A stretch of 26,740 nt of DNA from NCBI GenBank assembly GCA_030613505.1, contig JAUWLW010000039.1, positions 1 through 26,740 of the forward strand, read 5' to 3'. The translations under genes and the position numbers were made by a program. Below the pieces are notes generated by a model. It searched no databases. It was not told where the DNA came from and was given only the letters and a program-made list of their open reading frames with translations. Below are positions 47-26,519 of the stretch, piece after piece; the stretch's first letter is position 1, and each line of letters begins with the position of its first letter. The stretch comes from Candidatus Zixiibacteriota bacterium. GTDB lineage: Bacteria > RBG-13-66-14 > B26-G2 > WVWN01.

Positions 47-301
47 ATGAGTAACGGCGAAAAACCGCTCGAGCCCGCCTGGCTGTGGTACGGCCTCTCT
101 TTCATAATCCCGATATTAGGAATAATATTGGGCGCTATTTAATTGGGGAAACCTGAACCCGAAAACAAGCGCTTCGGCAAGAACTGCATCATCGCCGCCG
201 TCGCATCTTTCGTCGTGGTAATTTGTTGTGTAATAATATATTTGATATTCGTTTTTGGGTTAATAGGTACCAGCATATTCGGTGCCGCGATGAGTACGTA
301 A
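47..301 (+). pseudogene. Two-helix small membrane protein, interrupted by in-frame TAA
   Basis: From ATG 47 the frame reads MSNGEKPLEPAWLWYGLSF and continues as a hydrophobic helix to a TAA at 140-142 (codon 32). The same frame then stays open for 52 more codons to TAA 299-301, and carries the KPEPE..RFGKNC motif and second helix seen in the two intact paralogs at 338 and 666. At the stop, both paralogs have Tyr (IIY-x-KPEP), so a single TAT/TAC to TAA change would explain it. The downstream half is still homologous and helix-forming, so the lesion looks recent. A sequencing or assembly error, or stop-codon readthrough, are alternatives. Function of the family is unknown. Confidence 0.7.
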
Positions 302-337
302 ATCTCGCAACTATTTATTCCTACGGAGGTATGACGG

Positions 338-568
338 ATGACGAACGGTAACAAGCCGCTGGAGCCGAAGGTACTTTGGTACGTTCTCTCGTTTTTCATA
401 TGGTTGCTCGGCATCATCCTCGGCATTATTTATATGCAGAAGCCCGAGCCGGAGGTAAAAGCCTTCGGCAAGAACTGCCTTATCGCGGCGATAATAGGCG
501 TAGTGACGTGCATCTTATGTTACGTTATCTTCGGCTTGTTAGGGTTAGGCGGCAGGATTTGTGGGTAA
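338..568 (+). CDS. Two-helix small membrane protein, array copy 2
   Basis: This is a 76-residue protein. It has a short polar N-terminus (MTNGNKPLEPK), a first membrane helix (about residues 13-32), a conserved loop YMQKPEPEVKAFGKNC (32-47) and a second helix (about 48-70). The start at 338 is set by GGAGG at 325-329, 8 bp upstream; the ATG at 331 is too close. It is very similar in DNA and protein to the copy at 666, so the duplication is fairly recent. The hairpin topology and charged Lys/Glu loop are visible, but I do not recognise a characterised family. An inner-membrane accessory or stress protein is possible, but that is speculation. Confidence 0.8.
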   Translation: MTNGNKPLEPKVLWYVLSFFIWLLGIILGIIYMQKPEPEVKAFGKNCLIAAIIGVVTCILCYVIFGLLGLGGRICG

Positions 569-665
569 TTGGTCAGCAAAAGATGATGCGGCCACTACCG
601 AACAACACGTACCGAGCTTTAAGATTTCCATATAACCAAAAGCCTTACGGGAAAAGGAGACCTTT

Positions 666-896
666 ATGACGAACGGTAACAAGCCGCTTGAACCAAAGAT
701 CCTTTGGTATATTCTCTCTTTCATAATTTGGCCCATGGGCATTATTCTCGGAATAATATATCTGAAGAAGCCCGAGCCCGACGTGAAAGCCTTCGGCAAG
801 AACTGCCTTATCGCGGGAATTATTATGGTAGTCCTACTATGTTTATGCATAATACTTTCCACGGTCGGGGTCGGCATCCCCAGGCTCATCGGTTAA
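666..896 (+). CDS. Two-helix small membrane protein, array copy 3
   Basis: A 76-residue protein nearly colinear with the copy at 338: MTNGNKPLEPK start, helix 1, the YLKKPEPDVKAFGKNC loop and helix 2. An AAAAGGAGA ribosome binding site lies 7-8 bp before ATG 666. The 97 bp gap after copy 2 holds no clear promoter, so the copies may be co-transcribed. A strong intrinsic terminator (911-944) follows directly and closes this transcription unit. Function unknown. Confidence 0.8.
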   Translation: MTNGNKPLEPKILWYILSFIIWPMGIILGIIYLKKPEPDVKAFGKNCLIAGIIMVVLLCLCIILSTVGVGIPRLIG

Positions 897-910
897 ATTA
901 GATCCGCGAG

Positions 911-944
911 CCGCCCGGCCCGGAAGGGCCGGGCGGCACCTTTT
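911..944 (+). terminator. Rho-independent terminator after the small membrane-protein array
   Basis: A perfect 11-bp GC-rich stem (911-921 with 926-936) has a GGAA loop and is followed by CACCTTTT. It lies 14 bp after the stop of the third array copy, so it separates the array from the AT-rich genes downstream. Confidence 0.9.
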
Positions 945-954
945 CTAAAGGGAT

Positions 955-1164
955 ATGGACCTGGAAATTAAACGGTTTTGGCCTTATTATATTATTGCTT
1001 TATTAGCACCTTTAGCGGGTTTTATTTTGGCTACGATATATATAAATAAACCCGATAAAAAATATAAAAAGAAATGGATAACGATTTTCCTAAGCCTAAA
1101 ACCGTTCAACCCGGCGAAGAGTTCGCGGTTGCAGCATTGGTTTCCGGTTGCTGTGGAATTATAA
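955..1164 (+). pseudogene. Degenerate or truncated relative of the two-helix family
   Basis: From ATG 955 the frame encodes a first helix and a loop (about residues 9-40, ending IYINKPDKKYKKKW) that matches the helix-plus-KPEP loop of the upstream copies. The second helix is missing: after WITIFLSL the sequence becomes polar and unlike the family, and it overlaps the 5' end of the next gene by 91 bp. The ribosome binding site is poor and a terminator lies just upstream. This suggests a copy whose 3' half was lost by a deletion that joined it to the DUF4190-like gene. A -1 frameshift into that gene at the A-rich tract near 1066-1074 is a less likely alternative. Confidence 0.4.
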
Positions 1165-1352: not shown

Positions 1353-1384
1353 AAAACTTATACAATAATTATAAAATACCAACA

Positions 1385-2912: not shown

Positions 2913-4439
2913 TCAGTTGAGGACGACGAACTTGCCGCGCGCCGCGGCCTCGCCGCCCACCTCGAGCGTGAAGAAATAGATGCCGTTGGCCGCGGCCGTG
3001 CCGTCGTCGCGGTAGCCGAGCCAGTATTCGTCGATGCGGTCGCCCGGGCCCCGGTACTCGTGGTCCACCAGGCGCTTCACGCGACGGCCGGCGAAGTCGT
3101 ATATGTCCAGCGTCACGGTCCCGCCGTAGGCCAGGCCATACCGTATCGTGATGAAGCCGTCCCGGTTTCGCGCAAAGGGGCTCGGGAAGGCGAAAGCCTT
3201 CGGGAGGTCCGCCCGGCCGGCGGGGGGCGTCAACTCTATCTTGCGCCATGTCGCGCCGCTGTCTTTTGAGAAGCCGAGGCCGAAGTCGGTCCCGGCCCAT
3301 ACCTCCGCCTCGGAGGCCGCAGCGACCGTCGTCACGAACGGCGTCGGCAGGCCGGCCTCGACGCCGTAGTTCTCCCACGTCGCGCCGCCGTCGCGCGAGC
3401 GGCTGACGCCGCCCGGCGTCCCCGTGTACGCGTACGTACCGGCCCATACCCAGGGGCCCGCGGACGCCAGGCCGTAGGCGGTGTGAGAACCGAGGCCTTG
3501 CGCCATATTGTAATTAAACCACGTCGCGCCCCCGTCTTCCGACTTGAAGACGCCGTTGCCTAATATGGCAGGATTGAACGGGTTCGACGGCGCGGTCCCT
3601 GCCCAGACGACGTCGCGGCCGCCCACGTTCTGGATATCTACCACTACCGCGAAGCCGAACATTCCCTGCGGCGCGCCGTAAAAGGTCCAACTCGAGCCGT
3701 TGTCCGTCGATTTGAAGACGCCCTGCTCGCTCAATAAAGGTTGCGAACCGGGCTCCTCGGGATTATATCCCGGGTTGGGGTATGTTATTTCGGCGGCGGC
3801 CCATATCAGGTCGCCGCGCTTGGCCAGCGAGTAAAAATGACGGGCGTCCCGGCCCTTCCGGTCCTTGGGAATTATCAGCTCCCACGTCTTGCCGTTGTCC
3901 GCGGATTTGCCGATGCCGCCTTTCCACAGCGCCACCCACACGACGCCGTCGTCGTCGACGACGACGTCCCAGGCGAGCTCGAGCGGGCCGTCGGCCGGGA
4001 GGCCGTCCTTCTTACCGTAAACCCGCCACCGCCCCATAGCGGCGTCGTAGTGGGCCAACCCCCTACCCTCTAACGTGTAGCCTCCGAGGCCGAGGTCGAT
4101 AATCTCTATGCACGAGGCCCAGATATCGCCCTTGTAGGTGGCGACGGCGACGACGTCGCTCGAGGGCAGGCCGTCCCCCTGGCGGTACGTGCGCCAGCTC
4201 GAGCCTCGGTCGCGCGTCACGCCCAGGCCGTCGACGGTCGCGACCCACGCCGCGGCGCCGTCCACCCAGATGTCCTGGACGACGTCGGACATGCGCGGCA
4301 CGCCGCCCTCGTCGGCGCCCGCCTCGGCGCCCGCCAACTCGGCCGCGAGCCACGAGCGCTTCACCGTCGCGCCGCCGGCCGTCGCGACGACCAACGCCGC
4401 GCAGGCACATAATATAGATATTCTCCTCAACGCTACCAT
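2913..4439 (-). CDS. Secreted Asp-box beta-propeller with C-terminal FlgD-type Ig domain
   Basis: A 508-residue protein with a signal peptide (about 1-24). At least six Asp-box (BNR/sortilin-type) repeats are visible: TRDRGSSW, SADNGKTW, STDNGSSW, SEDGGATW, SRDGGATW and SKDSGATW, spaced as blades of a beta-propeller. The last 90 or so residues (AFPSPFARNRDG..., LDIYDFAGRRVKRL, then ANGIYFFTLEVGG...KFVVLN) form the FlgD-like Ig module often found at the C-termini of exported proteins in FCB and related phyla. It is probably cell-surface or periplasmic; the ligand is unknown. Family members are annotated as two-component-regulator-like propellers or photosystem-stability-like proteins, with no proven activity. 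An AGGGG directly abuts the ATG, so the exact start is less sure. Confidence 0.85.
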   Translation of the reverse strand: MVALRRISILCACAALVVATAGGATVKRSWLAAELAGAEAGADEGGVPRMSDVVQDIWVDGAAAWVATVDGLGVTRDRGSSWRTYRQGDGLPSSDVVAVATYKGDIWASCIEIIDLGLGGYTLEGRGLAHYDAAMGRWRVYGKKDGLPADGPLELAWDVVVDDDGVVWVALWKGGIGKSADNGKTWELIIPKDRKGRDARHFYSLAKRGDLIWAAAEITYPNPGYNPEEPGSQPLLSEQGVFKSTDNGSSWTFYGAPQGMFGFAVVVDIQNVGGRDVVWAGTAPSNPFNPAILGNGVFKSEDGGATWFNYNMAQGLGSHTAYGLASAGPWVWAGTYAYTGTPGGVSRSRDGGATWENYGVEAGLPTPFVTTVAAASEAEVWAGTDFGLGFSKDSGATWRKIELTPPAGRADLPKAFAFPSPFARNRDGFITIRYGLAYGGTVTLDIYDFAGRRVKRLVDHEYRGPGDRIDEYWLGYRDDGTAAANGIYFFTLEVGGEAAARGKFVVLN

Positions 4440-5026: not shown

Positions 5027-7720
5027 CTACTCCGGGAAGACGCCGAAGTAATCCTCGGGCTCGCGGCGAATCCTCCTGACCAGCGCGTACAGCGGTTTGT
5101 ATATCTCCATAAATACGAGCGGCGAGGTCGAGATGGCGAGCATCAACCCCCAGTCCCGCAGCGACAGCGGCACGGTGTGGAAGATAGATTGAAAGACCGG
5201 GATATAAATAATAGCGGTATGCAACGCCATAACCGTTGCGAACGAAATAAGCAACCACCGGTTGGAGAACGGGCCAAGGGCGAAGAAAGAGCGCGTCTGG
5301 CTCCGGCAATTGAGGGCGTGGAACTTCTGGCTCAACGTCAGTACCGAGAACGCGAAGGTCCGCGCCGTCGCCAACCCCTCCTGGAAATAATAGAGTACCA
5401 GCAAATATGAACCCAAAGTCGCCGCCGCGATGACGAACCCTTGGGCTACCATCAACTTCAATTCGTGGCCGTCGAACAGGAACGCGTGCTTCGGCCGGGG
5501 CTTCCGGAGGAGCAGGCCACTCTCCGGCGGGTCTACGCCGAGCGCGAGCGCGGGCGGGCCGTCGGTGATGAGGTTGACCCATAAAATCTGGATGGGCAGG
5601 AGCGGTAGCGGCCAGCCGGCGAGCGTCGCCACGATCATGACCAGGAGTTCGGAAGCGTTGCACGACAGCAGGAAGTGGACGAACTTCTTGATATTGGCGT
5701 AGATACTCCGCCCCTCCTCCACCGCCGCGATGATGGTCGCGAAGTTGTCGTCGGTGAGGATCATGTCCGACGCCTCCTTGGAGACGTCGGTGCCGGTGAT
5801 GCCCATCGCCACGCCGATGTCGGCCTCTTTGAGAGCCGGAGCGTCGTTGACGCCGTCGCCGGTCATCGCCACCACGGCGCCGCGCGCGCGCAGCGCCCGC
5901 ACGATGCGCAGCTTGTGCTCCGGCGTTACGCGCGCCAGTACCCGCGCGTCCTCGAGCTCGTCTATCAACTCCTCGTCGCTCAGCTCGTCCAACTCGCGGC
6001 CGGTCAGTACGGTACCGGCTTCGTCGAGGATGCCGACCTCGTCGGCGATGGCCGCGGCGGTGGCGCGATGGTCGCCCGTCACCATAATGGGCGTTATGTG
6101 CGCCATCCGGCATTTGCGCACCGCCTCGTAAACCTCAGGCCGCGGCGGGTCCTCGATCGCCACGTACCCCCGGAACGTGAGGTCCCTTTCTATCTCGACC
6201 GACACCTCTACGTCGTCGGCCACCGCGCGCGTCGCGACGGCGATGACGCGCAGGCCGCGGGCCGCCAGGCCGGCGTTGGCCTGTTGAATCTCGTCGCGGC
6301 CCTGCGGCGTCAGCGGCCGCTCGCCGCCGCCGTCTCGAACCGCCGTGCACAGCTCGAGCACTATCTCCGGCGCACCCTTCACTACGGCGACGCGAGCGCC
6401 GGCGGCGGCGAACACCGCGGTCATCCTCTTGCGCTTAGAGTCGAAAGGCACCTCGGCCTGGAACTCGTAACGGGCGGCCAGCTCGCGGGCGTCTACGCCC
6501 ACGTCCAGCGCCGCCTCCACCAGCGCCGCCTCGGTGGGATTGCTGCGCTCGCCGCCGAAGGAGTAATCGCCCGTCGTCGCCGCGTAGATGAAGTCGGAGG
6601 TGCACAGGAGCGCGGTAGCGAGCAGCTCCTTTAAATCTTCGGGCGCGTCGGGCCGCACCACCTCGCGGCCGTTGACGTACGCCCGCCGCGCCGCCATTCT
6701 GTTCTCGGTCAACGTACCGGTCTTGTCGGTGCATATCACCGACGTCGAGCCCAACGTCTCCACCGACGATAGGCGCCGAACGAGCGCGTGACGCCGGACC
6801 ATGCGCTGCACGCCGATAGCGAGCGTAATCGTCACGACGGCCGGGAGGCCCTCCGGAATGGCGGCCACCGCCAGCGCCACCGCCGTCAGAAACATCTCGT
6901 GCGCCGGTAGACCACGCAGAAGGCCCGCGCCGAACATAACGCTGCACAGGATAAGCACGGCCCAGACCAAAAGCTTCCCCAACTTGGCCAGCCGCCGTTG
7001 GAGCGGCGTCTGCTCTCCTCCCACCTCTTGAACCAGCGCCGCGATGCGCCCCAGCTCGGTACCCATCCCGGTCGCGACGACCAGGCCGTCGCCGCGGCCG
7101 TACGTCACGACGGTCCCGGTATACGCCATGTTCCGCCGGTCGGCCAGCGACATGTCGTCGTCGAGCTCGAGCGCCGCCTCTTTCTCGACAGCCAAAGATT
7201 CGCCGGTAAGCGCCGCCTCGTCCACCTCGAGGTAGTGTTCCTCGACCAGGCGAAGGTCCGCCGGGACGCGGTCACCGGCCCGCAGCCGGACGAGGTCCCC
7301 CGAGACCACGTCGCGGGTATCCAACACCTTCTCGCGGCCGTCGCGCACCACGGCGGCCTTGGGCGCCGCCATCTCGCGTAACGCTTGCAGCGACTTCTCG
7401 GCCCGATATTCCTGAATGAAACCTAAGATGCCGTTGAGCATCACGATGGCGAGAATCGCCGCGGCGTCCACGTATTCGCCCAGAAGGGCCGATACGACGC
7501 ACGCGCCGATAAGGACCAGCACGAGGAAGTCGGTGAATTGCGAGAGGAATATTCTAACGCCGCGCCGGGCGCCCACCTGCGCCAGCGCGTTGGGGCCGTA
7601 GCGTCGGAGCCGGGACGCGGCTTCGTCGGCCGTAAGGCCGACGCGTGACGAGGTCCCCAGCTGCGACGCGACATCCGCCGCGGCCCGGGCGTGCCATAAC
7701 TTGTCGACGCTTTCCGCCAT
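5027..7720 (-). CDS. Ca2+-transporting P-type ATPase (type II, SERCA/PMCA-like)
   Basis: An 897-residue pump, full length for type II ATPases. In order: N-terminal cation-ATPase segment (1-60), membrane helices 1-2, actuator domain with TGES (172-175), helix 4 with AAIPEGLP (287-293), phosphorylation motif DKTGT (Asp332), nucleotide-binding KGAPE (448-452), hinge TGDGVNDAP (620-628) and the C-terminal helices. The ion-binding residues of SERCA site II are conserved: Glu290 in PEGLP, Asn688/Glu691 in SCNASE, and Asn716/Asp720 in LWVNLITDG. This supports Ca2+ export from the cytoplasm, though Mn2+ or other cations cannot be excluded. It starts 1 bp after the stop of the anchored protein upstream, so translation is probably coupled. 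Confidence 0.93.
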   Translation of the reverse strand: MAESVDKLWHARAAADVASQLGTSSRVGLTADEAASRLRRYGPNALAQVGARRGVRIFLSQFTDFLVLVLIGACVVSALLGEYVDAAAILAIVMLNGILGFIQEYRAEKSLQALREMAAPKAAVVRDGREKVLDTRDVVSGDLVRLRAGDRVPADLRLVEEHYLEVDEAALTGESLAVEKEAALELDDDMSLADRRNMAYTGTVVTYGRGDGLVVATGMGTELGRIAALVQEVGGEQTPLQRRLAKLGKLLVWAVLILCSVMFGAGLLRGLPAHEMFLTAVALAVAAIPEGLPAVVTITLAIGVQRMVRRHALVRRLSSVETLGSTSVICTDKTGTLTENRMAARRAYVNGREVVRPDAPEDLKELLATALLCTSDFIYAATTGDYSFGGERSNPTEAALVEAALDVGVDARELAARYEFQAEVPFDSKRKRMTAVFAAAGARVAVVKGAPEIVLELCTAVRDGGGERPLTPQGRDEIQQANAGLAARGLRVIAVATRAVADDVEVSVEIERDLTFRGYVAIEDPPRPEVYEAVRKCRMAHITPIMVTGDHRATAAAIADEVGILDEAGTVLTGRELDELSDEELIDELEDARVLARVTPEHKLRIVRALRARGAVVAMTGDGVNDAPALKEADIGVAMGITGTDVSKEASDMILTDDNFATIIAAVEEGRSIYANIKKFVHFLLSCNASELLVMIVATLAGWPLPLLPIQILWVNLITDGPPALALGVDPPESGLLLRKPRPKHAFLFDGHELKLMVAQGFVIAAATLGSYLLVLYYFQEGLATARTFAFSVLTLSQKFHALNCRSQTRSFFALGPFSNRWLLISFATVMALHTAIIYIPVFQSIFHTVPLSLRDWGLMLAISTSPLVFMEIYKPLYALVRRIRREPEDYFGVFPE

Positions 7721-15726: not shown

Positions 15727-16509
15727 TTACCCGCTCGAGCCCCGCCTGGTTCGGAACTCGTAATACGCCAATATTCCCTGCGCCGCGTCGAGAAAACAGG
15801 CCAAAAAGCCGGGCCACCCGTCCAGGAAGCCCCACTTGAATAAGTAGCGCCGCCAGAACCGAACCTCGGGCCGCACCAGAAAATACCACAAGTCGGCGGC
15901 GAAACCGGCGCGCCGGCCGCGCCGCTCCAGGTAGTCGGCGCCCGCGGTCACGTACAGCGGCAGCTTCCGAAAGTAGTCGGCCAACGTGGGGTACGTCTCG
16001 TGGTAGAGCGGCGCCCCGAGCCTGCCGACGCGGCCGTCGACGTCGAGACGCTCGTGCACCGATACGCAGCGAAAACGCGCCCGCCCCCGCCGAAACAAGC
16101 GCAGCTGGTAATCGGGGTACGCGCCGCCGTGTTTGAGATATCGGCCGAAGTAGTTGTTCAGGCGGGGGAACTCGTACGCGTCGTACGGCGCGTCGCCGTC
16201 GGCCACCGCGGCCTCGACAGCGGCGGCGAGCTCCGGCGTTACGCTCTCGTCGGGGTCGAGGAAAAGGATCCACTCGCCGCGGCAGGCATTTATAGCCACG
16301 GTTTTATTTACGTTTAAATTGAAATCGTTTTTAACCGGAACGACTTTAGCGCCGGCGCGGCGGGCCACGGCGGTGGTGTCGTCCGAAGATTCGGCGTCGG
16401 CCACGACTACTTCGTCGGCGAACGTTACGGTCTCGAGGAGCGCGGCGAGCTCGCCCGCTTCGTCGTGGGCCAGGATGGCAACGGATAGCCGCGGCGTTTC
16501 TTCTTGCAT
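15727..16509 (-). CDS. GT2 family glycosyltransferase (WaaE/KdtX-like)
   Basis: A 260-residue GT-A enzyme: LSVAILAHDEAGELAALLETV at the N-terminus, VVADAESSDDTTAVAR (35-50) and the metal-binding D-x-D in ILFLDPDES (Asp85/Asp87). The RLNNYFGRYLKHGGAYPDYQLRLFRR segment is typical of the WaaE/KdtX-like branch, which adds sugars to LPS inner core. The C-terminus (about 200-250) is aromatic and amphipathic, suggesting membrane association. It is the first gene of the glycan operon. Its start codon region overlaps the -35 box of the divergent rpmB promoter. Confidence 0.88.
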   Translation of the reverse strand: MQEETPRLSVAILAHDEAGELAALLETVTFADEVVVADAESSDDTTAVARRAGAKVVPVKNDFNLNVNKTVAINACRGEWILFLDPDESVTPELAAAVEAAVADGDAPYDAYEFPRLNNYFGRYLKHGGAYPDYQLRLFRRGRARFRCVSVHERLDVDGRVGRLGAPLYHETYPTLADYFRKLPLYVTAGADYLERRGRRAGFAADLWYFLVRPEVRFWRRYLFKWGFLDGWPGFLACFLDAAQGILAYYEFRTRRGSSG

Positions 16510-16904: not shown

Positions 16905-18854
16905 ATGCCTTCCGAACAGGAAAAAGCTCCCGAGCGGCGGCGCGTTCTCGTAACCGGCGCCGCCGGCTTCATCGGCTCGAGCCTCGTCGACGAGCTCCTG
17001 GCGCGCGGTCACGAGGTCGTGGGCGTAGACAACTTCCTCGACAATTACGGCCGCGAAGTCAAGCTCGCCAACCTGCGCGCCGCCCGCGACCACGCCGCTT
17101 TCACCTTCTACGAAATAGATTTGGCTCACGACGATTTGGAAGACGTCGTCGACGGCGTCGATGCGGCGTTCCACCTGGCGGCGCGGCCGGGGGTCCGCGA
17201 CTCCTGGGGTCGGCACTACGAGGAGTATCTGACGAACAACGTCCTCGCCACGCAACAGCTGCTGGAGGCGCTCCGGGCCCGGGCGGACGTCCCGCTCGTC
17301 CTCGCCTCCTCCAGTTCGGTATACGGCGACGCGAACCGCCTCCCCGTCGCCGAAGACGCGATGCCGTCCCCCGTCTCGCCCTACGGCGCGACGAAGCTGG
17401 CGGCGGAAGACCTCGTCGATTTATATAAAAAAAGCTACGGCCTCCAGGCCGTGACACTACGTTACTTCACCGTGTACGGCCCCCGCCAAAGACCCGATAT
17501 GGCGATCCACAAGTTCATTCGCGCCATCCTGGACGGCGAGACCATCGTCCTGTACGGCGACGGCGAGGAACGGCGCGACTTCACGTACGTGGGCGACGCC
17601 GTGAAGGCCACCGCGGAAGTGCTGGCTCGAGGCCTAACGTCGGGGACGTACAACGTGGCCTCCGGGAAGACGGTATCCCTGGCCGAGCTCACCGCGTCTC
17701 TCGAGAAGGTGCTGGGCAAAAAGGCCGACGTTACCCGGGCGCCCCATCAGCGCGGCGACGTCCGCGCGACCCACGGCGACGTAACGGCGCTGCGGAAAGC
17801 GATAGGCTACGCCCCCGCCACCGCGCTCGAAGAGGGCCTGGCGGCGCAGGCCGCTCGGATGGCCGAGGAGGCGCCGGGCGAAGCCCCCGCGGCGGCCACG
17901 GCGGCACGGCGTCCCGTGCGCTCGCCCAAAGTGTCGGTCATAATCGTCAACTACAACGCCGCCCACGTCGTACACGAGGCCGTCGACTCCTGCTGGAGGA
18001 ATCCACCCGCCGGCGGCGAGGTGGAGATAATCGTCGTCGACAACGCGTCGTCGGACGGCTCGGCCCAAGCGCTCGCCGCCCGGGACGACATCATATTCAT
18101 TCGCAACCGCCACAACCTGGGCTACGCCGCGGCCAACAACCAGGGCCTCGCCGCGGCCCGGGGCGACTACTTCGTGCTCCTCAACCCGGACGTGGAGGTG
18201 GCGCCGGGCGTCTTCGACAAACTCATCGACTTCATGGACGAGAACCCGGACGCCGGCGTGGTGGGACCCGCGCTGGTCAGCCCGGCGGGGCGGCTCCAGG
18301 AATCGTACCGCCGCTTCCCCAACCTCCTCCACCTCATCGGGAGTCGCAAATCGTTGATCTATCGCTTCTGGCCGCGCAACCCGTTCTCGCGCCAGGGCTT
18401 CTACGGCCAGCTGGAGCTCGAGCGGCCGGTGAAGGTGGACTTCATCGCCGGCGCCGCGATGATGTTCACTCGCGAGCTCGTCGACCTCATCGGGCCGCTG
18501 GACCCCAATTACTTCATGTACGTCGAGGACGCGGACTTCAGCCGCCGCGCGCGCGACGCCGGCTACTACACCTACCTGCTGCCGGACATCACCGTCCTCC
18601 ACCACTGGGGCGAGTCCGCGGCGCTTCACCCGTACCGCGTGGTCTTCATCCACCACATCTCGATGATGCGGTACTTGAGGAAGCACCAGCCGCTCCAGTT
18701 CGCGCTGTACCTGCTCCTCCTGCCGCTGGTGGGCGTACACCTCCTCCTCGAGCTGCTCTACGCGTGGCGCGCGACGCGCCGCCGCAAAAAGCAGCTCGCC
18801 GCGGAACGAGAGGCGGGGGCCGCGGAGCAAAGAGATGTTTCGGGCCGGCCCTAA
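16905..18854 (+). CDS. Fused sugar-nucleotide epimerase and GT2 glycosyltransferase
   Basis: A 649-residue, two-domain protein. Residues 13-315 are an extended SDR (UDP-glucose/glucuronate 4-epimerase-like): NAD-binding TGAAGFIG (17-24), Ser136-138, the catalytic Y-x3-K (Tyr160/Lys164) and RYFTVYGPRQRPDMA. An Ala/Pro/Arg linker (about 320-340) joins it to residues 342-625, a GT2 transferase of the rhamnosyltransferase-like type: VSVIIVNYN, VVDNASSDGS (378-387), D-x-D-like LNPDVEV (426-432), EDADFSRRARDAG (541-553) and HHWGESAA. A hydrophobic C-terminal segment (about 598-622) may anchor it. The fusion implies that a nucleotide sugar is epimerised and then transferred by one polypeptide. The start is ATG 16905; its ribosome binding site is weak. 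Confidence 0.88.
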   Translation: MPSEQEKAPERRRVLVTGAAGFIGSSLVDELLARGHEVVGVDNFLDNYGREVKLANLRAARDHAAFTFYEIDLAHDDLEDVVDGVDAAFHLAARPGVRDSWGRHYEEYLTNNVLATQQLLEALRARADVPLVLASSSSVYGDANRLPVAEDAMPSPVSPYGATKLAAEDLVDLYKKSYGLQAVTLRYFTVYGPRQRPDMAIHKFIRAILDGETIVLYGDGEERRDFTYVGDAVKATAEVLARGLTSGTYNVASGKTVSLAELTASLEKVLGKKADVTRAPHQRGDVRATHGDVTALRKAIGYAPATALEEGLAAQAARMAEEAPGEAPAAATAARRPVRSPKVSVIIVNYNAAHVVHEAVDSCWRNPPAGGEVEIIVVDNASSDGSAQALAARDDIIFIRNRHNLGYAAANNQGLAAARGDYFVLLNPDVEVAPGVFDKLIDFMDENPDAGVVGPALVSPAGRLQESYRRFPNLLHLIGSRKSLIYRFWPRNPFSRQGFYGQLELERPVKVDFIAGAAMMFTRELVDLIGPLDPNYFMYVEDADFSRRARDAGYYTYLLPDITVLHHWGESAALHPYRVVFIHHISMMRYLRKHQPLQFALYLLLLPLVGVHLLLELLYAWRATRRRKKQLAAEREAGAAEQRDVSGRP

Positions 18855-20165
18855 ATGAGCACGGGGGATGCCGTGAAAACCGGGAGGGGTATCCAAGTTC
18901 GCAAGCTATTCGTAGTTCTATGCGTCGCGGCCGCCGCGACCTTAACCTACCCCGCCGCGACCGGCGCAGCATATCTCCTTATACCCATGGACGACGCGCA
19001 GGCCGACCACCTGCGCGCGTACGGCATCTGCTACGAGGCGCTGCTGCGGGGCGCCCGGGCGGAGTGGCTGCTCAATTACCGCGGCGGCTCCTTCCTCGTC
19101 GCCGACTTCGAAGGCCTACCGGAGCTTTGCCTCGAGCGCGGCGTAACGGCCGAGTACGTCGCCGACCCCGGCCCCATATACGCCGTAATCGAAGAAAATA
19201 ACATGGAGGCGGTCCCGCTCACCAAGGCGCCGCGCGTGGCGCTCTACGCGCCGGCCGACGAGGAAATGTGGGACGACGCCGTGATGCTGGCGCTCGACTA
19301 CGCCTACATCCCCTACGACGTTATCTGGAACGACGTCGTCCTGACCGGCGGCCTGTACCAGTACGACTGGGTGCACTTGCACCACGAGGACTTCACCGGC
19401 CAGTTCGGCAAGTTCTACGGTTCGTTCTCCGGGACGCCGTGGTACGAGGCGCTGGAGGCGCAGTACCGGGCGGAGGCCGCGGCCGCCGGGCACCCCTCGG
19501 TGGCCGCGTACATGGGCGCCGCGGCCGAGGCCGTCGAACGCTTCGTCGCGGGAGGCGGCTTCCTGTTCGCGATGTGCGCCGCCGCCGACACGCTGGACAT
19601 CGCGCTGGCGGCTCGCGACGTCGACGTCGTCGCCGAGGTCTTCGACGGCACGCCGGTCGACCCTCGCGCGAGCGAGCGCCTCGACTACGGCCGGACGCTG
19701 GCCTTCACCGACTTCGCGGTCCTTCCCAACCCTTACCTCTACGAATACTCCGACATCGACACGCCCCGCTCGATCTCGCCGGCGGCAGACCCGTCCAACC
19801 CGGGGTCGTTCACGCTCTTCGAGTTCAGCGCCAAAGCCGACACCGTTCCCACCATCCTCACCCAAAACCACCGCTCGAGGATAACGGAGTTCATGGGCCA
19901 GACCACGGCGTTCACGCGCAAAACCGTCAAGAAGAGCGTAGTCGTCCTCGCGACGGTGGACGGCTACGAGGAAGCGAAGTACGTCTACGGCAACCACGGC
20001 GAGGGTTTCTTCTCGTTCCTCGGCGGCCACGACCCGGAGGACTTCCAGCACTTCATCGGCGAGATGCCCACCGACCTCCGCTTCCATAAAAATTCGCCCG
20101 GCTACCGCCTTATCCTCAACAACATCCTCTTCCCCGCGGTGCGCCGCGAGGAGCTAAAGACTTAA
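18855..20165 (+). CDS. Exported protein of the family often labelled 'asparagine synthetase B'
   Basis: A 436-residue protein whose N-terminus carries a late signal peptide (about residues 16-39, RKLFVVLCVAAAATLTYPAATGA). From memory it resembles a Bacteroidetes/FCB family called asparagine synthetase B-like. Shared landmarks are YLLIPMDDAQADHLRAYGICYEALL, WLLNYRGGSFL, YDWVHLHHEDFTGQFGKFY and GGGFLFAMCAAADTLDIALAA. It lacks the AsnB catalytic and ATP-binding signatures, so that label is probably wrong. The GGGFLFAMC stretch resembles a class I amidotransferase-like nucleophile elbow, but this is only an impression. The ATG directly abuts the stop of the fused enzyme, with a later GTG possible. 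Its location is probably periplasmic or surface. Confidence 0.75.
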   Translation: MSTGDAVKTGRGIQVRKLFVVLCVAAAATLTYPAATGAAYLLIPMDDAQADHLRAYGICYEALLRGARAEWLLNYRGGSFLVADFEGLPELCLERGVTAEYVADPGPIYAVIEENNMEAVPLTKAPRVALYAPADEEMWDDAVMLALDYAYIPYDVIWNDVVLTGGLYQYDWVHLHHEDFTGQFGKFYGSFSGTPWYEALEAQYRAEAAAAGHPSVAAYMGAAAEAVERFVAGGGFLFAMCAAADTLDIALAARDVDVVAEVFDGTPVDPRASERLDYGRTLAFTDFAVLPNPYLYEYSDIDTPRSISPAADPSNPGSFTLFEFSAKADTVPTILTQNHRSRITEFMGQTTAFTRKTVKKSVVVLATVDGYEEAKYVYGNHGEGFFSFLGGHDPEDFQHFIGEMPTDLRFHKNSPGYRLILNNILFPAVRREELKT

Positions 20166-21028
20166 TGCGGCGCGGCCGGTGGACGCTTTGGCTCGCGGCT
20201 TTGGTCGTGGCGGCGTCTTCATGCGGCTCGAGCGACGTCGTCGTACATAAGGACATAACGTACTACGACGGCCCGGGCCACGACGCCAAGAAGCACCTGC
20301 TCGACCTTTACCTTCCGGCCGACGCGGAAAACTTTCCCGTCCTGCTCTTCATTCACGGCGGCGGCTGGCGCCACGGCCACAAGGACGGCGACTTCAACTT
20401 CTACCATCGCCTCGGCAAAGGGTTGGCCCGGCGAGGCGTGGGCGTCGCCGTCGCGGCATACCGGCTGGCGCCCAAGCACAAGTTTCCGGCGCAGGCCGAG
20501 GCCGGCGCCCGGGCGACGCGGTGGGTATACGAGAATATCGGGGAATACGGCGGCGACCCTGGGCGGATATTCCTGTGCGGCCACTCCGCCGGCGCTCACC
20601 TGGTCGCGCTCGCCGCGCTCGACGAAAGGTACTTGAAGGCGGAGGGTTTGCCGCCGGAAGCCGTCGCCGGCGTCATCGGCATCAGCGGTCCCTACGACGT
20701 TGAATATATGTGGGAGGAGGGCGGTTGGTTCGCGCGGCGGTACTTCGTCGAGCCGGCCTTCGGCGACGAGCCGGCGACGTGGGCCACGGCGTCGGCGCCG
20801 AATTACGCCCGGGCCGACGCGCCGCCGTTTCTGCTAATCTACGCCGAGCACGACCACGCCGGCCTGGCCGCGCAGGCGTACCGCTTAGCCGGGGCGCTCG
20901 CGGCTCGAGGCGTCCAGACGCCGGTCCACGAGGTCGCGGGCCGCAACCATTTAACGATTATCTACTACGCGGGGAAAGAGGGGGACAGTACGACGGAACT
21001 TATTTTAAATTTCATAGAACGCCGATGA
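20165..21028 (+). CDS. Lipoprotein alpha/beta-hydrolase (esterase-like)
   Basis: A 287-residue protein. The N-terminus has a hydrophobic run ending VVAASSC (Cys20), a near-canonical lipobox that suggests lipidation and export. The catalytic parts are all present: oxyanion HGGGW (64-68), the nucleophile elbow GHSAGA (Ser141), the acid Asp230 in YAEHDHAG and His262 in GRNHLTI. This is the layout of the HSL/BD-FAE-like carboxylesterase group, which act on acyl esters, including feruloyl and acetyl-xylan types. The substrate is unknown. It overlaps the previous stop by 1 bp (TAATG), so expression is coupled to the exported protein upstream. Confidence 0.88.
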   Translation: MRRGRWTLWLAALVVAASSCGSSDVVVHKDITYYDGPGHDAKKHLLDLYLPADAENFPVLLFIHGGGWRHGHKDGDFNFYHRLGKGLARRGVGVAVAAYRLAPKHKFPAQAEAGARATRWVYENIGEYGGDPGRIFLCGHSAGAHLVALAALDERYLKAEGLPPEAVAGVIGISGPYDVEYMWEEGGWFARRYFVEPAFGDEPATWATASAPNYARADAPPFLLIYAEHDHAGLAAQAYRLAGALAARGVQTPVHEVAGRNHLTIIYYAGKEGDSTTELILNFIERR

Positions 21029-21049: not shown

Positions 21050-22288
21050 TCAGTACCCCAATAGCCTCATCTGCTCCGCCACCCTCTCCCGCCGAAGCTT
21101 CACGTTCAATATCAAGCCGACGGCGATAAACGACGATATCGTCGCCGAGCCGCCGTACGACATGAACGGCAGCGGCAGACCCGTAACCGGGATAAGGCCC
21201 ACCGCCATCGCCGCGTTCACAACGAACTGCGTGAAGAAGAGGGTGCCCAGGCCGAAGGCCAAGATGCCGCCGCGGCGGTCGCCGGCGCGATACGCGATGA
21301 GGAACGACCGAAAAACGACGACGGCGAACAACGCGACCACAAGCAGGCATCCGGCGAAACCCCATTCCTCGCCCCAAGCCGACAGCACGAAGTCGGTGTG
21401 GCCGGCCGGAACGAACTGGCAGTGAACCTGGCTGCCCTCCAGGAAGCCCTTGCCGAACAGCCGCCCCGAGCCCAGCGCGATCTTGGCCTGGATGATGGAA
21501 TAGCCGGCGCCGTGCGGGTCGGCGGTGGGCGAGAGGAAGGATAGAATGCGCGCCCGCTGATACTCCTTGAGGAGTCCCCACAGGACGGGCGTCGCCGCCC
21601 CCGCTACGACGTTCGCGCCGACGACGAACGCGCGCTCCCACCACCGCGCCCGGGCGACCAGCGCTACTACGACGACGACGCCCAGGAATATCAGGAAGGC
21701 GACGAGTTTGAACGATACGAAGAAAGCCGCGAACGGGGAAAGCAGCAATAACAAGTACACAACCGGAGCGCGCGCCCAGTAGAGGCAAGCGAAGAGCAGC
21801 GGCACGAAGACCGCCGCCGTCCCCAGGTCCGGCTCGACCGCTATCAGCGCCGCCGGCGCCGCGGCGACCGCCACCGGTAAAATAAAATGGGGTAAACTCT
21901 CGAGGCGGCGAAAGACGTCGAGGACGAGCGCCAGCGTAAGTACCGTCGCTATCTTGGCGAACTCCGACGGTTGGAATCTGAACGGGCCCAGCGAAAGCCA
22001 CCGCTGCGCGACGCCGCCCTGCGACACGGCCTTGGCCGCGAGGAGCGCCAACGCGGCCAACGCCAGTACGTATAACGCCCAGGAAATCTTTACCGTCGCG
22101 CGGTAAGGCACCGCCACGGCCAGCATTAAAGCCACCCACCCAAGGCCCACCCACAGGAGCTGTTTAAAAAATATCTCGCCGCCCGCCGCCGCGGAGTAAA
22201 CAGCCGCCAGGCCGACGACGCTCAGAAGAAAGGTCGCGCCCAGGAGGGGCAAATCCACGCGGCGCCCGATGTCGTGCAGCGTGCCCAC
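21050..22288 (-). CDS. rodA: Rod shape-determining protein RodA (SEDS glycosyltransferase)
   Basis: A 412-residue SEDS protein with about ten membrane helices and the family landmarks AQRWLSLGPFRFQPSEFAK, VEPDLGTAAVF (the Asp is the catalytic residue of RodA polymerases), FLSPTADPHGAGYSIIQAKIALGSG, and the C-terminal TGLPLPFMSYGGSATIS. It polymerises lipid II glycan strands for cell elongation with PBP2. The GTG start at 22288 overlaps the mrdA stop (TAGTG), so the two partners are translationally coupled. The genes converge with the esterase gene 21 bp away; no clear terminator is visible between them. Confidence 0.95.
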   Translation of the reverse strand: MGTLHDIGRRVDLPLLGATFLLSVVGLAAVYSAAAGGEIFFKQLLWVGLGWVALMLAVAVPYRATVKISWALYVLALAALALLAAKAVSQGGVAQRWLSLGPFRFQPSEFAKIATVLTLALVLDVFRRLESLPHFILPVAVAAAPAALIAVEPDLGTAAVFVPLLFACLYWARAPVVYLLLLLSPFAAFFVSFKLVAFLIFLGVVVVVALVARARWWERAFVVGANVVAGAATPVLWGLLKEYQRARILSFLSPTADPHGAGYSIIQAKIALGSGRLFGKGFLEGSQVHCQFVPAGHTDFVLSAWGEEWGFAGCLLVVALFAVVVFRSFLIAYRAGDRRGGILAFGLGTLFFTQFVVNAAMAVGLIPVTGLPLPFMSYGGSATISSFIAVGLILNVKLRRERVAEQMRLLGY

Positions 22289-24111
22289 TAGCCGGCGACC
22301 TCTTCGTCGGTTTTACTCTTCTCCATATCGGCGGGTGTGACGCCGGCCGGCGGTTGCGGCCACGCCGCGCCGCCGATTATATTTTCGCGGCAATAACCGA
22401 CGATCTCCTTACCCCACTTGAGGTACGACTCCCCGTAACCGCCGTTCTCCACCAGGATGCAAACCGCGACCTTGGGCTCGTACGCCGGCGCGAAGCCGGC
22501 GAACCAGGCGTGGGTATCGCCCAACGGGTTCTCGGCCGAGCCGGTCTTGCCGGCGAGGTAATGGGCGTTCACGCCGTAGCGGTTTACGACGCCTATGAGG
22601 CCGCGCATAATCGTCTCCCGCGTCGCAGGCTCGAGGCCCACGACGCCGCGCACCTCGGGCGGGAAAGACGCCCGCACGACGCCGTCGCCGTCCGCCGCGC
22701 GCGTGACTAAGCGCGGCCTGTACAGACGGCCGCCGTTGGCGAAAGCGCAGAAGGCCACGAGCTCCTGTATGGGCGTCAGCAGAATCTGGCCCTGCCCTAC
22801 GGCGTTGTTGAGGACCTCGCCCCGCGGCCACCTCTTGCCCCATTTGCGCTCGAGCCTCTCGCGGCTGGGTATCAGGCCGCGGTTCTCGTGGGGAAGCGGT
22901 ATACCGGTCGGGGCGCCGTAGCCGTACTTCCGCGCGTATTTGTTTAAGTTATCGATGCCGACGCGGAGGCCCAACTGGAAGAAGAAGACGTTGCAGGAAT
23001 TTTTTAAACCGCCGGCGATGTCGAGGGAGCCGTGACCGGAACGCTTCCAGCAGTGGAAGCGCCACCGGCCGTACCGGAAGACGCCGCCGCAGGGAAGCGG
23101 CATCCTCTCGTCGTGGCGCACGAGCTCTTCCTCCAGCGCCGCGCTGGCGGTAACCAACTTGAACGTCGACCCCGGCGGATATGAACATTGGATGGCGCGG
23201 TTGAGCAGGGGATGGTCGGGGGCGCCCGCGTACGCGGCCCACCTGGCCGCCGACAGGCCGGCCGCGAAGTCGTTGGGGTCGACCGCGGGCGAGGAGGCGA
23301 GCGCCCACACGTCGCCGTTCTCCGGGTTCATCACTATTATGGCGCCGCGCCGCCCGGCCAGCAACCCATCGACCAGCAGCTGCAGGCCCAGGTCTATCGT
23401 CGTATGTAAATCGTATCCGGCGCGCGGCGGCGTCGTCTCCTCCGCGTACTCCAACCCCAGCTTCTTCTCGAGCGCGTTGACCGCGACCGCCTCGAAGCCG
23501 TCGCGGCCGCGCAAATACTCCTCGTACGCGTACTCCAATCCCGCCAGGCCGACGGTATCTCCCAGGCCGTACCCGCGGGCCTTCAGCGCCGCCAGCCGCT
23601 CGGGGCCGATCTCCCCCACGTACCCCAACAGGTGGCAGGCCAACGAGCCGTGGGGGTAGCAGCGCACCGGCCGCGAGACGACCGTCATTTCCGGGTAGCG
23701 CGCCCGCACCTCCTCGAAGGCGAAGAGCTCCCGGGGCGTCAGGCCGGTCGCGACCTCCGCCGGCTCGTACGGGAACTCGCGGTTCTCCTCGATGGTGGCG
23801 GCGAGGGTCGCGGGCGTCGTCGTAAGGTACGAGGCCGAACGCTCGAGCGCGGCCGCCGGCACCGCCTCGGCCGAGGGCAACATCCAAAGTATGGAGTAGG
23901 AAGGTCTGTTGCAGGCGAGAACCTCGCCGCTGCGGTCGTATACGCGGCCGCGCGGCGCCCGCACCGGGATGCGGCGCAAACGGTTCTGTTGGCTGAGGGC
24001 GTAGAAATCGTCGCCGGACGCCAGTTGGAGGTCGGCGACCCGGAGAGTAAGGATCCCGAGCGCCGCGCCGGCAACGACGGCCGCGGCTACCAATCGCCCC
24101 TTAGTCGCCAT
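22288..24111 (-). CDS. mrdA: Penicillin-binding protein 2 (elongasome transpeptidase)
   Basis: A 607-residue class B PBP. One N-terminal helix (about 6-25), dimerisation/pedestal region with RAPRGRVYDRSGEVLACN (51-68) and a transpeptidase domain with all three active-site motifs: STFK (Ser315-Lys318), SCN (372-374) and KTGS (522-525). FHCWKRSGHGSLD (352-364) is typical of PBP2. It cross-links peptidoglycan along the cylinder wall, working with RodA, whose gene overlaps its stop by 1 bp. ATG 24111 lies inside the last codons of pgeF (11-bp overlap), so the three genes form one tightly coupled operon. Confidence 0.94.
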   Translation of the reverse strand: MATKGRLVAAAVVAGAALGILTLRVADLQLASGDDFYALSQQNRLRRIPVRAPRGRVYDRSGEVLACNRPSYSILWMLPSAEAVPAAALERSASYLTTTPATLAATIEENREFPYEPAEVATGLTPRELFAFEEVRARYPEMTVVSRPVRCYPHGSLACHLLGYVGEIGPERLAALKARGYGLGDTVGLAGLEYAYEEYLRGRDGFEAVAVNALEKKLGLEYAEETTPPRAGYDLHTTIDLGLQLLVDGLLAGRRGAIIVMNPENGDVWALASSPAVDPNDFAAGLSAARWAAYAGAPDHPLLNRAIQCSYPPGSTFKLVTASAALEEELVRHDERMPLPCGGVFRYGRWRFHCWKRSGHGSLDIAGGLKNSCNVFFFQLGLRVGIDNLNKYARKYGYGAPTGIPLPHENRGLIPSRERLERKWGKRWPRGEVLNNAVGQGQILLTPIQELVAFCAFANGGRLYRPRLVTRAADGDGVVRASFPPEVRGVVGLEPATRETIMRGLIGVVNRYGVNAHYLAGKTGSAENPLGDTHAWFAGFAPAYEPKVAVCILVENGGYGESYLKWGKEIVGYCRENIIGGAAWPQPPAGVTPADMEKSKTDEEVAG

Positions 24112-24934
24112 TCCCGTGACCCTCGGCCTTCGCCGTCTCGAGCGCGGCTATGGCCATCAGGCGGCCGGCCTCGTCGCCGTCGCGCCGCCGCGACTCGAGC
24201 AACCCCTCTTCGCAAGACGCGCACGTCGCGACGCGGTAGACGTTCTCCGGGAGGACGCCCGCCTCCTGCGCCGCGAGTTCGTTGGCGCGGTGGAGGTCCA
24301 GCCGGCGCTTCCCGCCTTCCTCCGTCAAAACCTGGCCGGCCCGTTTGCCGAACGCGGCCTCCGCCGCCCGGGCGCCATCGTCGCCCACGGCGTAGCAGCA
24401 CGGCCCGACGGCGGGGCCCAGGAAGACGGCGACCTCTTCGGCTCGAGCCGCCCAGGACTCTTCGAGCCGCGAAACGCCCTCGCCGATTATTTTGGCCAAC
24501 GTCCCGCGCCACCCGGCGTGCAAGACCGCGAGCGCGCCCGGCCGCGCCGCCCACATCACTATCGGCACGCAGTCGGCCGTGAAGACGGCGAGCGGCGCGT
24601 TGACGACGTCCGTGGCGAGGCCGTCGCACTCGCCGCACCACCGCCGCTCCGCCAACGCGACCCGGCATATCTCGGTCCCGTGGACCTGGCGGCACGTCGC
24701 CAGCCGGCCGTACGGGAACCCCAGCGTGGCGCATAAGCGCGCGACGTACTCCTCGTTTACGCGGCCGTCCTCGTCGAGCGGTTTGCCGGCGAACGCCGCC
24801 GCGGGCCCCTCTTTCAGCGTTTTTTTAGTCGCGAACGCGGCCGTTACGCCGTCGAAGGCCGGCACGCTATCGAGCCACAGCGCCCCCGCCTCGCCGGCCA
24901 GCTCCCGCGGCGCGAATTCGTTTTCGGCGTTCAA
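24101..24934 (-). CDS. pgeF: Peptidoglycan editing factor PgeF/YfiH (multicopper polyphenol oxidase fold)
   Basis: A 277-residue protein with the YfiH/DUF152 metal-site motifs: QVHG (His85), FTADCVPI (Cys122) and LHAGWRG (His139), plus FLGPAVGPCCYAVG. In E. coli, YfiH/PgeF removes wrongly added L-Ser from peptidoglycan precursors; the family has also been described as a laccase-like or purine-nucleoside-processing enzyme. Its place directly upstream of mrdA-rodA fits peptidoglycan editing. The start codon is TTG at 24934, chosen because GGAGG (24940-24944) lies 5 bp before it. It overlaps mrdA by 11 bp. Confidence 0.88.
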   Translation of the reverse strand: MNAENEFAPRELAGEAGALWLDSVPAFDGVTAAFATKKTLKEGPAAAFAGKPLDEDGRVNEEYVARLCATLGFPYGRLATCRQVHGTEICRVALAERRWCGECDGLATDVVNAPLAVFTADCVPIVMWAARPGALAVLHAGWRGTLAKIIGEGVSRLEESWAARAEEVAVFLGPAVGPCCYAVGDDGARAAEAAFGKRAGQVLTEEGGKRRLDLHRANELAAQEAGVLPENVYRVATCASCEEGLLESRRRDGDEAGRLMAIAALETAKAEGHGNGD

Positions 24935-24939
24935 GCGTA

Positions 24940-24944
24940 CCTCC
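24940..24944 (-). promoter_or_regulatory. Strong ribosome binding site before a TTG start
   Basis: GGAGG on the minus strand lies 5 bp before the TTG at 24934 and fixes the start of pgeF. Confidence 0.75.
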
Positions 24945-25097
24945 TCAAGGCCGCCATATCCGACGTTCGACCGACGACACGAACGGAAGCGACCGTATGT
25001 CCTTCGCCGCCCGCTTTAGGCGCGGCGGGCGAAGGCCGCGGCCTCCTCGACTATAGTACCGACCTTGGCCATCTTTTTATTCTAACATATGCCGAAT

Positions 25098-25124
25098 AAA
25101 AAAACGCCCCCGTGGCGAGGGCGT
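25098..25124 (-). terminator. Rho-independent terminator of the secreted paralog pair
   Basis: On the minus strand an 8-bp stem (25117-25124 with 25104-25111, one G-U pair) and a 5-nt loop are followed by seven T. It lies 23 bp after the stop of the gene at 25147 and separates it from pgeF. Confidence 0.9.
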
Positions 25125-25146
25125 CTATCTGACCCATAGGTAACAC

Positions 25147-25785
25147 CTATCTAAACAACGCTCGTACGCGGCCCAGGCTCGTGGGCTCGAGGCCGGCCAT
25201 GGTACCGATATGGAGGCGGATGTACTGACCCTCGGCATACACCGTCCCGGTGGCGGCGTCATCTCTGAACGCGTAGCAACGGCCCCCGGCGGCGCTATAA
25301 ATTTTGCAATATATATCATGGCCGCTGTCGCCGCGCCACCTTATCTCCATTAGCAAGTTGTCACGGTTGTCGTAGTTGAACTTGCCGGGGGAGATGCCGA
25401 CGTCAATCCATTCCGTACCCCTTAGTTCCAGGCTCACCGTATCCAAGACTTGCACCGGCGTTTTTCCCGCGTAGTTGTTGTAGAACGTAGGCTCGAGCAC
25501 GGTCTTCGTCGTATGGCACAGCCAGACGCGGCAGTTGTTAAACGCGCCACTGGTACTGCCGGAACTATATTTGAAATCGACTCGGTTAATATACCCGGCG
25601 TAATTAATGTCGCGCTGAAACCAAAGACACTGGAACCTCATCTCGTACCCCATACCCCTCCACGGGACGAGACTGCCGGTAACTTCGGTCCCGATAGTAA
25701 TGACCTTGCCGGTGGCGAACGCCGCGTAGGGCGCGAAAGTAGCGACGCTTACAACTCCCACGAACAAGGTCAATAACTTCTTCAT
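25147..25785 (-). CDS. Secreted protein of unknown function, paralog A
   Basis: A 212-residue protein with a clear signal peptide (MKKLLTLFVGVVSVATFAPYAAFA, about 1-24). The mature part is beta-rich and polar: MRFQCLWFQRDINYAGYI, FNNCRVWLCHTTK, NNYAGKTPVQVLDTVSLEL, NYDNRDNLLMEIRWRGDSG. It ends with IRLHIGTMAGLEPTSLGRV and a short basic tail. It is clearly homologous to the gene just upstream (25872). It has paired cysteines, and the NYDNRDNLLMEIRW block looks like a carbohydrate- or matrix-binding jelly-roll core, but I do not recognise a named family. GGAGG lies 8 bp before ATG 25785. Confidence 0.78.
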   Translation of the reverse strand: MKKLLTLFVGVVSVATFAPYAAFATGKVITIGTEVTGSLVPWRGMGYEMRFQCLWFQRDINYAGYINRVDFKYSSGSTSGAFNNCRVWLCHTTKTVLEPTFYNNYAGKTPVQVLDTVSLELRGTEWIDVGISPGKFNYDNRDNLLMEIRWRGDSGHDIYCKIYSAAGGRCYAFRDDAATGTVYAEGQYIRLHIGTMAGLEPTSLGRVRALFR

Positions 25786-25871
25786 TTTAAATCCTCCTTA
25801 TTCTATGCCAAGCTCCCCACTCTTCGAAAAAAACCGGGTAAGCGCCGTTGTATAACGAATGTTAATAACCG

Positions 25872-26519
25872 CTATCTGTATAGCGCCTTGACGCGCCCCA
25901 GGCTCGTGGGCTCGAGGCCCACCATCGTCCCGACGTGCAGGCGTATGTACTGGGTTTTATCTTCTACCATACCAGTATTCGCGGTATGGCTTTTAGCATA
26001 AACGCGCGCGGCCGTACCTTCGGAACGCCAACAATAAATAGCGCGCCCGCTATCGCCGGACCAACGTATCTCCATCAGCAAGTTATCGCGGTTATTGTAG
26101 TCGAACTTGTTGGCGTCGATGCCTATATCGTACCAACCGGTGCCGCTAAGCGTAAGGGTTAACTTATCCATGACCTGCGCGGGCGTATTGCCGGCGTAGT
26201 TATCGTCGAAGGTGGCGACGAGCGCGGATTTGTTCGTGTGGCAAAACCAAACGCGGACGTTATTGAAAGCGGCCGGCGGCCTGCCCGACTGATATGCGAA
26301 CTCGACAGCGTTTACGTAACCGGCGTAGTTGATGTCCCGTTGGAACCAAAGGCATTGGAACCTCATACCGGCCGCGCCTTGGCCCATCCAGGGTATACTA
26401 TTGCCGGCTACGCGCGTGCCGATGGTTACCACTTTACCCGACGCGTTTACCGCCGGGGCCGCCAAAACCGCGCCTACCACGAGCAACGCCGGTATTCTTA
26501 AGAACCTCCTCATTTTCAC
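25872..26519 (-). CDS. Secreted protein of unknown function, paralog B
   Basis: A 215-residue protein with signal peptide (about 1-26, MKMRRFLRIPALLVVGAVLAAPAVNA). It is colinear with paralog A: MRFQCLWFQRDINYAGYV, FNNVRVWFCHTNK, NNRDNLLMEIRWSGDSG, and the C-terminus IRLHVGTMVGLEPTSLGRV plus a short tail. AAGGAGGAG precedes ATG 26519 at good spacing. The 86 bp between the copies holds only paralog A's ribosome binding site, so the pair is likely one transcript. Function unknown; secretion is well supported by the signal peptide. Confidence 0.78.
   Translation of the reverse strand: MKMRRFLRIPALLVVGAVLAAPAVNASGKVVTIGTRVAGNSIPWMGQGAAGMRFQCLWFQRDINYAGYVNAVEFAYQSGRPPAAFNNVRVWFCHTNKSALVATFDDNYAGNTPAQVMDKLTLTLSGTGWYDIGIDANKFDYNNRDNLLMEIRWSGDSGRAIYCWRSEGTAARVYAKSHTANTGMVEDKTQYIRLHVGTMVGLEPTSLGRVKALYR

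Follow-up and report, generated by a model that had tools for sequence, protein, structure and literature searches.

The highly iterated palindrome (HIP) sequences of cyanobacteria occur at 1000-2000 copies per Mb, and HIP1 (GCGATCGC) exceeds the number expected from base composition 55-228-fold (Elhai 2015, PMC4390886). A multi-copy palindrome of another kind, 18 bases long, is present in 38 exact, mostly intergenic, REP-like (repetitive extragenic palindrome-like) copies in Caldithrix abyssi (PMC5317091). Here we describe the six-base palindrome CTCGAG in a 26,740-nucleotide stretch of DNA (the window, contig JAUWLW010000039.1) from a Candidatus Zixiibacteriota bacterium, and in the genomes of its relatives. 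The word is over-represented at about 1.1-1.5 copies per kb across whole genomes of one lineage of uncultured bacteria, in every reading frame as well as in uncalled DNA, and is retained between related genomes beyond expectation. Literature searches on over-represented CTCGAG returned nothing directly relevant.

The window contains 45 copies of CTCGAG between positions 68 and 25911, where base composition predicts 9.0; the initial annotation, made by eye, had put these figures at about forty and roughly nine. In a set of 19 window genes picked by eye, 44 copies are present against 15.0 +/- 3.3 after synonymous codons were shuffled 1000 times (maximum 26). Thirty sites are in frame and encode Leu-Glu, the two other frames hold seven each, and one site lies outside called genes. 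The Ala-Arg readings (GCT CGA) proposed at 12014, 17625 and 20903 all fall within genuine genes; the same frame is used by further GCT CGA sites at 14823, 15384 and 24442 and by a Pro-Arg site (CCT CGA) at 9984. A maximal-order Markov test of the window (30 expected, observed-to-expected ratio only 1.5) was set aside as a sole criterion, being too weak because CTCGAG supplies much of its own sub-word counts. The window, with 1.68 copies per kb against 1.14 in the genome, is on the rich side and otherwise nothing special.

We compared the source genome (G000, a 2.86 Mb draft of 100 contigs in which the window is the whole of contig C74) with two genus-mates (G001 and G003), a more distant genus-mate (G002), a member of the same order (G004) and a member of the same phylum (G009). 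The drafts are 90-97% complete. DNA identity to the window over 4-5 kb is 90% for G001, 77% for G003 and 73% for G002. Of the named genomes in the searched collection, Candidatus Zixiibacteriota A-C077 comes closest, with 79% protein identity for the PBP2 gene. L005 was left out as a fourth genome, since it is very probably G003 and hence not independent. The sample sizes were up to 730 kb for G000, 368 kb for G001, 471 kb for G003, 240 kb for G002, 220 kb for G004 and 69 kb for G009. Gene calling relied on a codon-usage score, a simpler method than a full gene finder, and synonymous codons were swapped among places sharing the amino acid and the next base, preserving most junction effects.

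Whole-genome counts reach 3271 in G000 (against 1719 for the reversed word GAGCTC), 3580 in G001 and 3986 in G003, and densities in the sampled DNA are 1239, 1429 and 1664 per Mb. The ratio to base composition is 3.7-5.0 in these carriers, and 11.1-13.8 for the 8-mer GCTCGAGC. After the codon-plus-next-base shuffling CTCGAG ranks first among all 4096 six-mers, both overall (357 against 201 expected, z 12.8) and out of frame (z 13.6 in G000, 11.0 in G001 and 8.7 in G003). The excess thus neither returned to normal once codon pairs were modelled nor was confined to the window. Out-of-frame copies exceed expectation 4.3-5.8-fold (176/40 in G000, 112/19 in G001, 116/27 in G003), and copies outside called genes are likewise in excess (70/28.8, 66/15.2 and 80/25.4, compared with 17/27.7 in G002). 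In the 730 kb sample of G000, 657 in-frame copies were observed against 403, together with 49 against 5.4 in frame 1 and 127 against 35 in frame 2; the NCT-CGA-G contexts, with Ala, Pro, Ser or Thr preceding Arg, number 49 against 5.6. Leu-Glu pairs give most of the copies, but relative to expectation the excess peaks where codon preference runs counter to the word. As the initial annotation had held, Leu-Glu pairs explain only part of the excess, which belongs to the DNA word itself.

The excess is an all-or-none spike on the exact six-base site. In the three carriers the nine pairs of one-letter neighbours reach 0.3-1.25 times expectation and CTCGAG alone 4.3-5.8 times, and other palindromes with the TCGA core (ATCGAT, GTCGAC, TTCGAA) show no rise common to the carriers. 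The flank preference is mild: GGCTCGAGCC is counted 106, 171 and 128 times in the carriers against 26, 23 and 24 for its reversed form, with 11 and 15 in G002. G at position -1 is common beside other GC palindromes too, and only C at -3 looks particular to CTCGAG. Extensions to the left and to the right occur almost independently of each other, which rejects an extended palindrome of 10 or 12 bases. A dispersed repeat was rejected as well, since, apart from a few near-identical pairs, out-of-frame and uncalled copies mostly have unrelated flanks. No regular spacing was seen: the spacing is near-random (coefficient of variation 1.04-1.10) and the copies are evenly spread along genes. A second enriched palindrome, CCGCGG, is 1.3-1.5-fold in excess out of frame in G000, G001 and G003, mainly in one frame, with no excess in G002 and G004.

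The CTCGAG excess is lineage-specific: G000, G001 and G003 carry it, while G002 (11 out-of-frame copies against 9 expected) and G004 (14 against 10) do not. The simplest reading of this distribution would be a gain on the branch leading to the three carriers; a loss in G002 is a possible alternative. Naive counts mislead here, as the base-composition excess of 3.4 in G009 resembles that of the carriers, yet is wholly in frame (69 against 46.5 in frame, 1 against 2.5 out of frame).

Retention between carriers was measured in orthologues at sites encoding the same amino acids, the control being the same codon and next base elsewhere. From G000 to G003, 64 of 84 in-frame copies were retained (46.0 expected), as were 15 of 23 out-of-frame copies (5.8 expected), and both directions together give 158 of 236 against 105.7 (z 6.8). 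This is the best value among the 16 palindromes with enough sites (at least 30), whose median z is near 0.9; CCGCGG alone is comparable (202/346 against 142, z 6.5). Toward G002, copies of G000 are retained no more often than expected (11 against 10.6), and the reverse direction shows a small surplus (11 against 6.0, on 18 sites). An earlier, simpler conservation test against words of equal composition was mixed out of frame (15/42 against 33%) because amino-acid change was uncontrolled; the codon-matched controls gave a clear result. The lower loss argues for selection or protection, and not for mere faster creation.

Methyltransferase and restriction genes were sought by profile searches. 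The C5 methyltransferase family (PF00145) has no match in any of the six genomes; PF02384, PF01555 and PF07669 have several matches in G000 and G001, and G003, the densest genome, matches none of these four families. The Dam-like family PF02086 is represented once each in G000, G003, G002, G004 and G009, and in G001 by only a weak match inside an N6_N4 enzyme. This gene is the only methyltransferase found in G003; its copies in G000, G003 and G002 are 72-82% identical, and judging from that identity it was probably inherited vertically. GATC-centred palindromes (CGATCG, TGATCA, GGATCC) are depleted in G000 after codon shuffling, despite its Dam-like D12 methyltransferase gene. An XhoI endonuclease (PF04555, 5e-75) adjoined by an N6/N4 methyltransferase is present in G009 (G009:C159:14718-16198, L117) and was not found in G000-G004; in-frame CTCGAG in G009 is not depleted. 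In G001 (contig C119, L103:1447-2040) a methyltransferase truncated by the contig end is 68% identical to the XhoI-linked one, and lies near a helix-turn-helix/zinc-ribbon antitoxin-like gene. No close relative of the XhoI-linked enzyme was found in G000, where local matches reach only 25-32%. A search for MT-A70 (PF05063) gave no match, though it had no positive control. None of the methyltransferase families searched matches the motif in its distribution, in drafts 90-97% complete and with other families outside the search. The suggestion of a DNA-methylation motif is therefore not supported so far, the XhoI gene occurring only in G009, which has no out-of-frame excess.

Since CTCGAG is kept during evolution, it is probably the recognition site of a protein acting on DNA. 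The explanation we regard as likely, with some reserve, is that CTCGAG is a genome-wide iterated palindrome of a sub-genus lineage, maintained through recognition by a sequence-specific protein. Such a protein, probably dimeric, would recognise the palindrome, and every copy would persist through a slight advantage that it confers in recombination, repair or chromosome structure, as proposed for HIP1; alternatively, recognition may protect the copies during repair. We favour a lineage-specific DNA-binding or DNA-modifying protein as the putative recogniser; a conventional DNA methyltransferase is a possible one, without support from gene content. A bolder version, which we entertain only tentatively, is that a HIP-like system evolved a second time, independently, outside cyanobacteria; in it, a lineage-specific protein other than a canonical methyltransferase would recognise CTCGAG, and thousands of copies would be selected for chromosome structure, repair or recombination. 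Several points weigh against maintenance by recognition. No candidate recogniser protein was found, the effect is modest beside HIP1, and retention alone is compatible with context-dependent mutation that both makes and protects the word. The three carriers also belong to one genus and share ancestry, so they are not three independent origins, and the simple codon-usage calling leaves missed genes in the uncalled DNA. Simple gene calling, missed genes and common ancestry would not, however, create an exact-word spike that is absent from G002 under the same procedure.

Among the rival explanations, a translational or codon-pair bias would have CTC preferred to CTG before GAG, with the remainder due to GC-rich composition. 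Most copies are indeed in frame (657 of 833 in the called genes of G000), CTCGAG greatly outnumbers CTGGAG (866 to 194), and the excess in G009 is purely in frame. The bias accounts for this in-frame baseline, but it is refuted as a full explanation, leaving unexplained the 4-6-fold out-of-frame excess, the excess in uncalled DNA and the top rank after shuffling, and we give it little credence. A methylation-linked ratchet of the kind proposed for HIP would require a CTCGAG methyltransferase of XhoI/PaeR7I type to mark the site, so that strand-directed mismatch repair fixes new copies. The HIP-range density (PMC4390886), the truncated enzyme of G001 and the exactness of the palindrome, whose lack of neighbour excess resembles the specificity of a modification enzyme, all fit such a ratchet. 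It is nevertheless rather doubtful: in drafts that are 90-97% complete, the densest genome matches none of the four methyltransferase families named above, the PF02086 gene of G000 and G003 has a 75% identical orthologue in motif-free G002, and nothing closely related to the XhoI-linked enzyme was found in G000.

Context-dependent mutation or very-short-patch-like repair, making CTCGAG without any benefit, would agree with the near-random spacing and the even spread along genes, but is unlikely, as a process of creation only would not raise retention. A Vsr-type process should moreover deplete the C-to-T neighbours, and CTTGAG stands at 0.85-1.04 and TTCGAG at 0.63-0.97; with no PF00145 gene in the six genomes and CTTGAG not depleted, C5 methylation coupled to Vsr repair was rejected. 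For a recombination (chi-like) or DNA-uptake signal, the number of copies (about 3300 to 4000 in each genome) and the synonymous conservation are of a fitting kind. Such a signal is very improbable, since chi is defined by a strand-skewed, non-palindromic word and CTCGAG, as its own reverse complement, has no strand orientation, while DNA-uptake signals are longer words with far stronger enrichment.

The sites in the window are listed in the table. Two further features of the window were noted beside them. Tandem paralogous short, secreted-looking proteins are encoded on the minus strand at 25147-25785 and 25872-26519 and share the ending GLEPTSLGRV+ALFR or ALYR; the protein of 25147-25785 has no Pfam match. 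A single open frame on the plus strand at 16905-18854 is, by eye, a putative NAD-dependent sugar epimerase fused to a family 2 glycosyltransferase.

Table. Positions and reading contexts of CTCGAG in the window.
Feature	Position	Strand	Basis
CTCGAG, outside called genes	68..73	.	sequence and gene set
CTCGAG in frame (Leu-Glu)	2961..2966	.	
CTCGAG out of frame (GGC TCG AGT)	3691..3696	.	
CTCGAG in frame (Leu-Glu)	3978..3983	.	
CTCGAG out of frame (CCC TCG AGC)	4159..4164	.	
CTCGAG out of frame (GGC TCG AGC)	4198..4203	.	
CTCGAG in frame (Leu-Glu)	5951..5956	.	
CTCGAG in frame (Leu-Glu)	6353..6358	.	
CTCGAG in frame (Leu-Glu)	7166..7171	.	
CTCGAG in frame (Leu-Glu)	7226..7231	.	
CTCGAG in frame (Leu-Glu)	8842..8847	.	
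CTCGAG out of frame (CCT CGA GGC)	9984..9989	.	
CTCGAG in frame (Leu-Glu)	10474..10479	.	
CTCGAG in frame (Leu-Glu)	10914..10919	.	
CTCGAG out of frame (GCT CGA GCC)	12015..12020	.	
CTCGAG in frame (Leu-Glu)	12155..12160	.	
CTCGAG in frame (Leu-Glu)	12458..12463	.	
CTCGAG in frame (Leu-Glu)	12539..12544	.	
CTCGAG in frame (Leu-Glu)	13955..13960	.	
CTCGAG in frame (Leu-Glu)	14539..14544	.	
CTCGAG in frame (Leu-Glu)	14644..14649	.	
CTCGAG out of frame (GCT CGA GCC)	14823..14828	.	
CTCGAG out of frame (GCT CGA GCC)	15384..15389	.	
CTCGAG out of frame (GGC TCG AGC)	15734..15739	.	
CTCGAG in frame (Leu-Glu)	16432..16437	.	
CTCGAG out of frame (GGC TCG AGC)	16976..16981	.	
CTCGAG out of frame (GCT CGA GGC)	17626..17631	.	
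CTCGAG in frame (Leu-Glu)	17700..17705	.	
CTCGAG in frame (Leu-Glu)	18417..18422	.	
CTCGAG in frame (Leu-Glu)	18747..18752	.	
CTCGAG in frame (Leu-Glu)	19131..19136	.	
CTCGAG out of frame (CGC TCG AGG)	19874..19879	.	
CTCGAG out of frame (GGC TCG AGC)	20227..20232	.	
CTCGAG out of frame (GCT CGA GGC)	20904..20909	.	
CTCGAG in frame (Leu-Glu)	21899..21904	.	
CTCGAG in frame (Leu-Glu)	22630..22635	.	
CTCGAG in frame (Leu-Glu)	22849..22854	.	
CTCGAG in frame (Leu-Glu)	23467..23472	.	
CTCGAG in frame (Leu-Glu)	23842..23847	.	
CTCGAG in frame (Leu-Glu)	24137..24142	.	
CTCGAG in frame (Leu-Glu)	24194..24199	.	
CTCGAG out of frame (GCT CGA GCC)	24442..24447	.	
CTCGAG in frame (Leu-Glu)	25186..25191	.	
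CTCGAG in frame (Leu-Glu)	25492..25497	.	
CTCGAG in frame (Leu-Glu)	25911..25916	.	

Of the known systems, the Caldithrix abyssi palindrome is similar in being a multi-copy genomic palindrome of a poorly studied phylum with no function assigned, but CTCGAG is a short word whose thousands of copies are mostly intragenic. The XhoI/PaeR7I recognition site is identical in sequence; the phylum-mate G009 has the XhoI endonuclease and methyltransferase, and G001 a truncated relative of that methyltransferase. Restriction-modification sites are usually avoided in the host genome, whereas the carriers show an excess of CTCGAG; the G000 and G003 assemblies have neither gene, and G009 has both and no out-of-frame excess. 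The preference for the CTC-GAG codon pair in GC-rich bacteria, in turn, does not extend out of frame and outside genes as the carrier excess does.

The closest likeness is to HIP1, whose sites are conserved beyond expectation. CTCGAG is similarly palindromic, the top over-represented word of its genome, present in some relatives and absent from others, and retained beyond expectation, and its density of 1239-1664 per Mb falls within the HIP range. The proposal of an iterated palindrome such as HIP1 was in this respect well founded, with the word ranking first out of frame in three genomes, at lower strength. The differences are that CTCGAG is a hexamer with a mild flank preference, in a different phylum, with no matching methyltransferase found common to the carriers, and that its ratio to base composition, even for the 8-mer, is far from 55-228. 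We do not file CTCGAG as a member of the HIP family, because its strength falls short and the methyltransferase families searched do not follow it; by analogy it resembles HIP1 as a genome-wide palindrome that may be selected or protected by repair. What HIP1 is for has long been an open question, and the favoured idea links it with methyltransferases. With an unrelated phylum, close relatives with and without the word, and no obvious common methyltransferase, CTCGAG provides an independent test case for how iterated words are made and kept.

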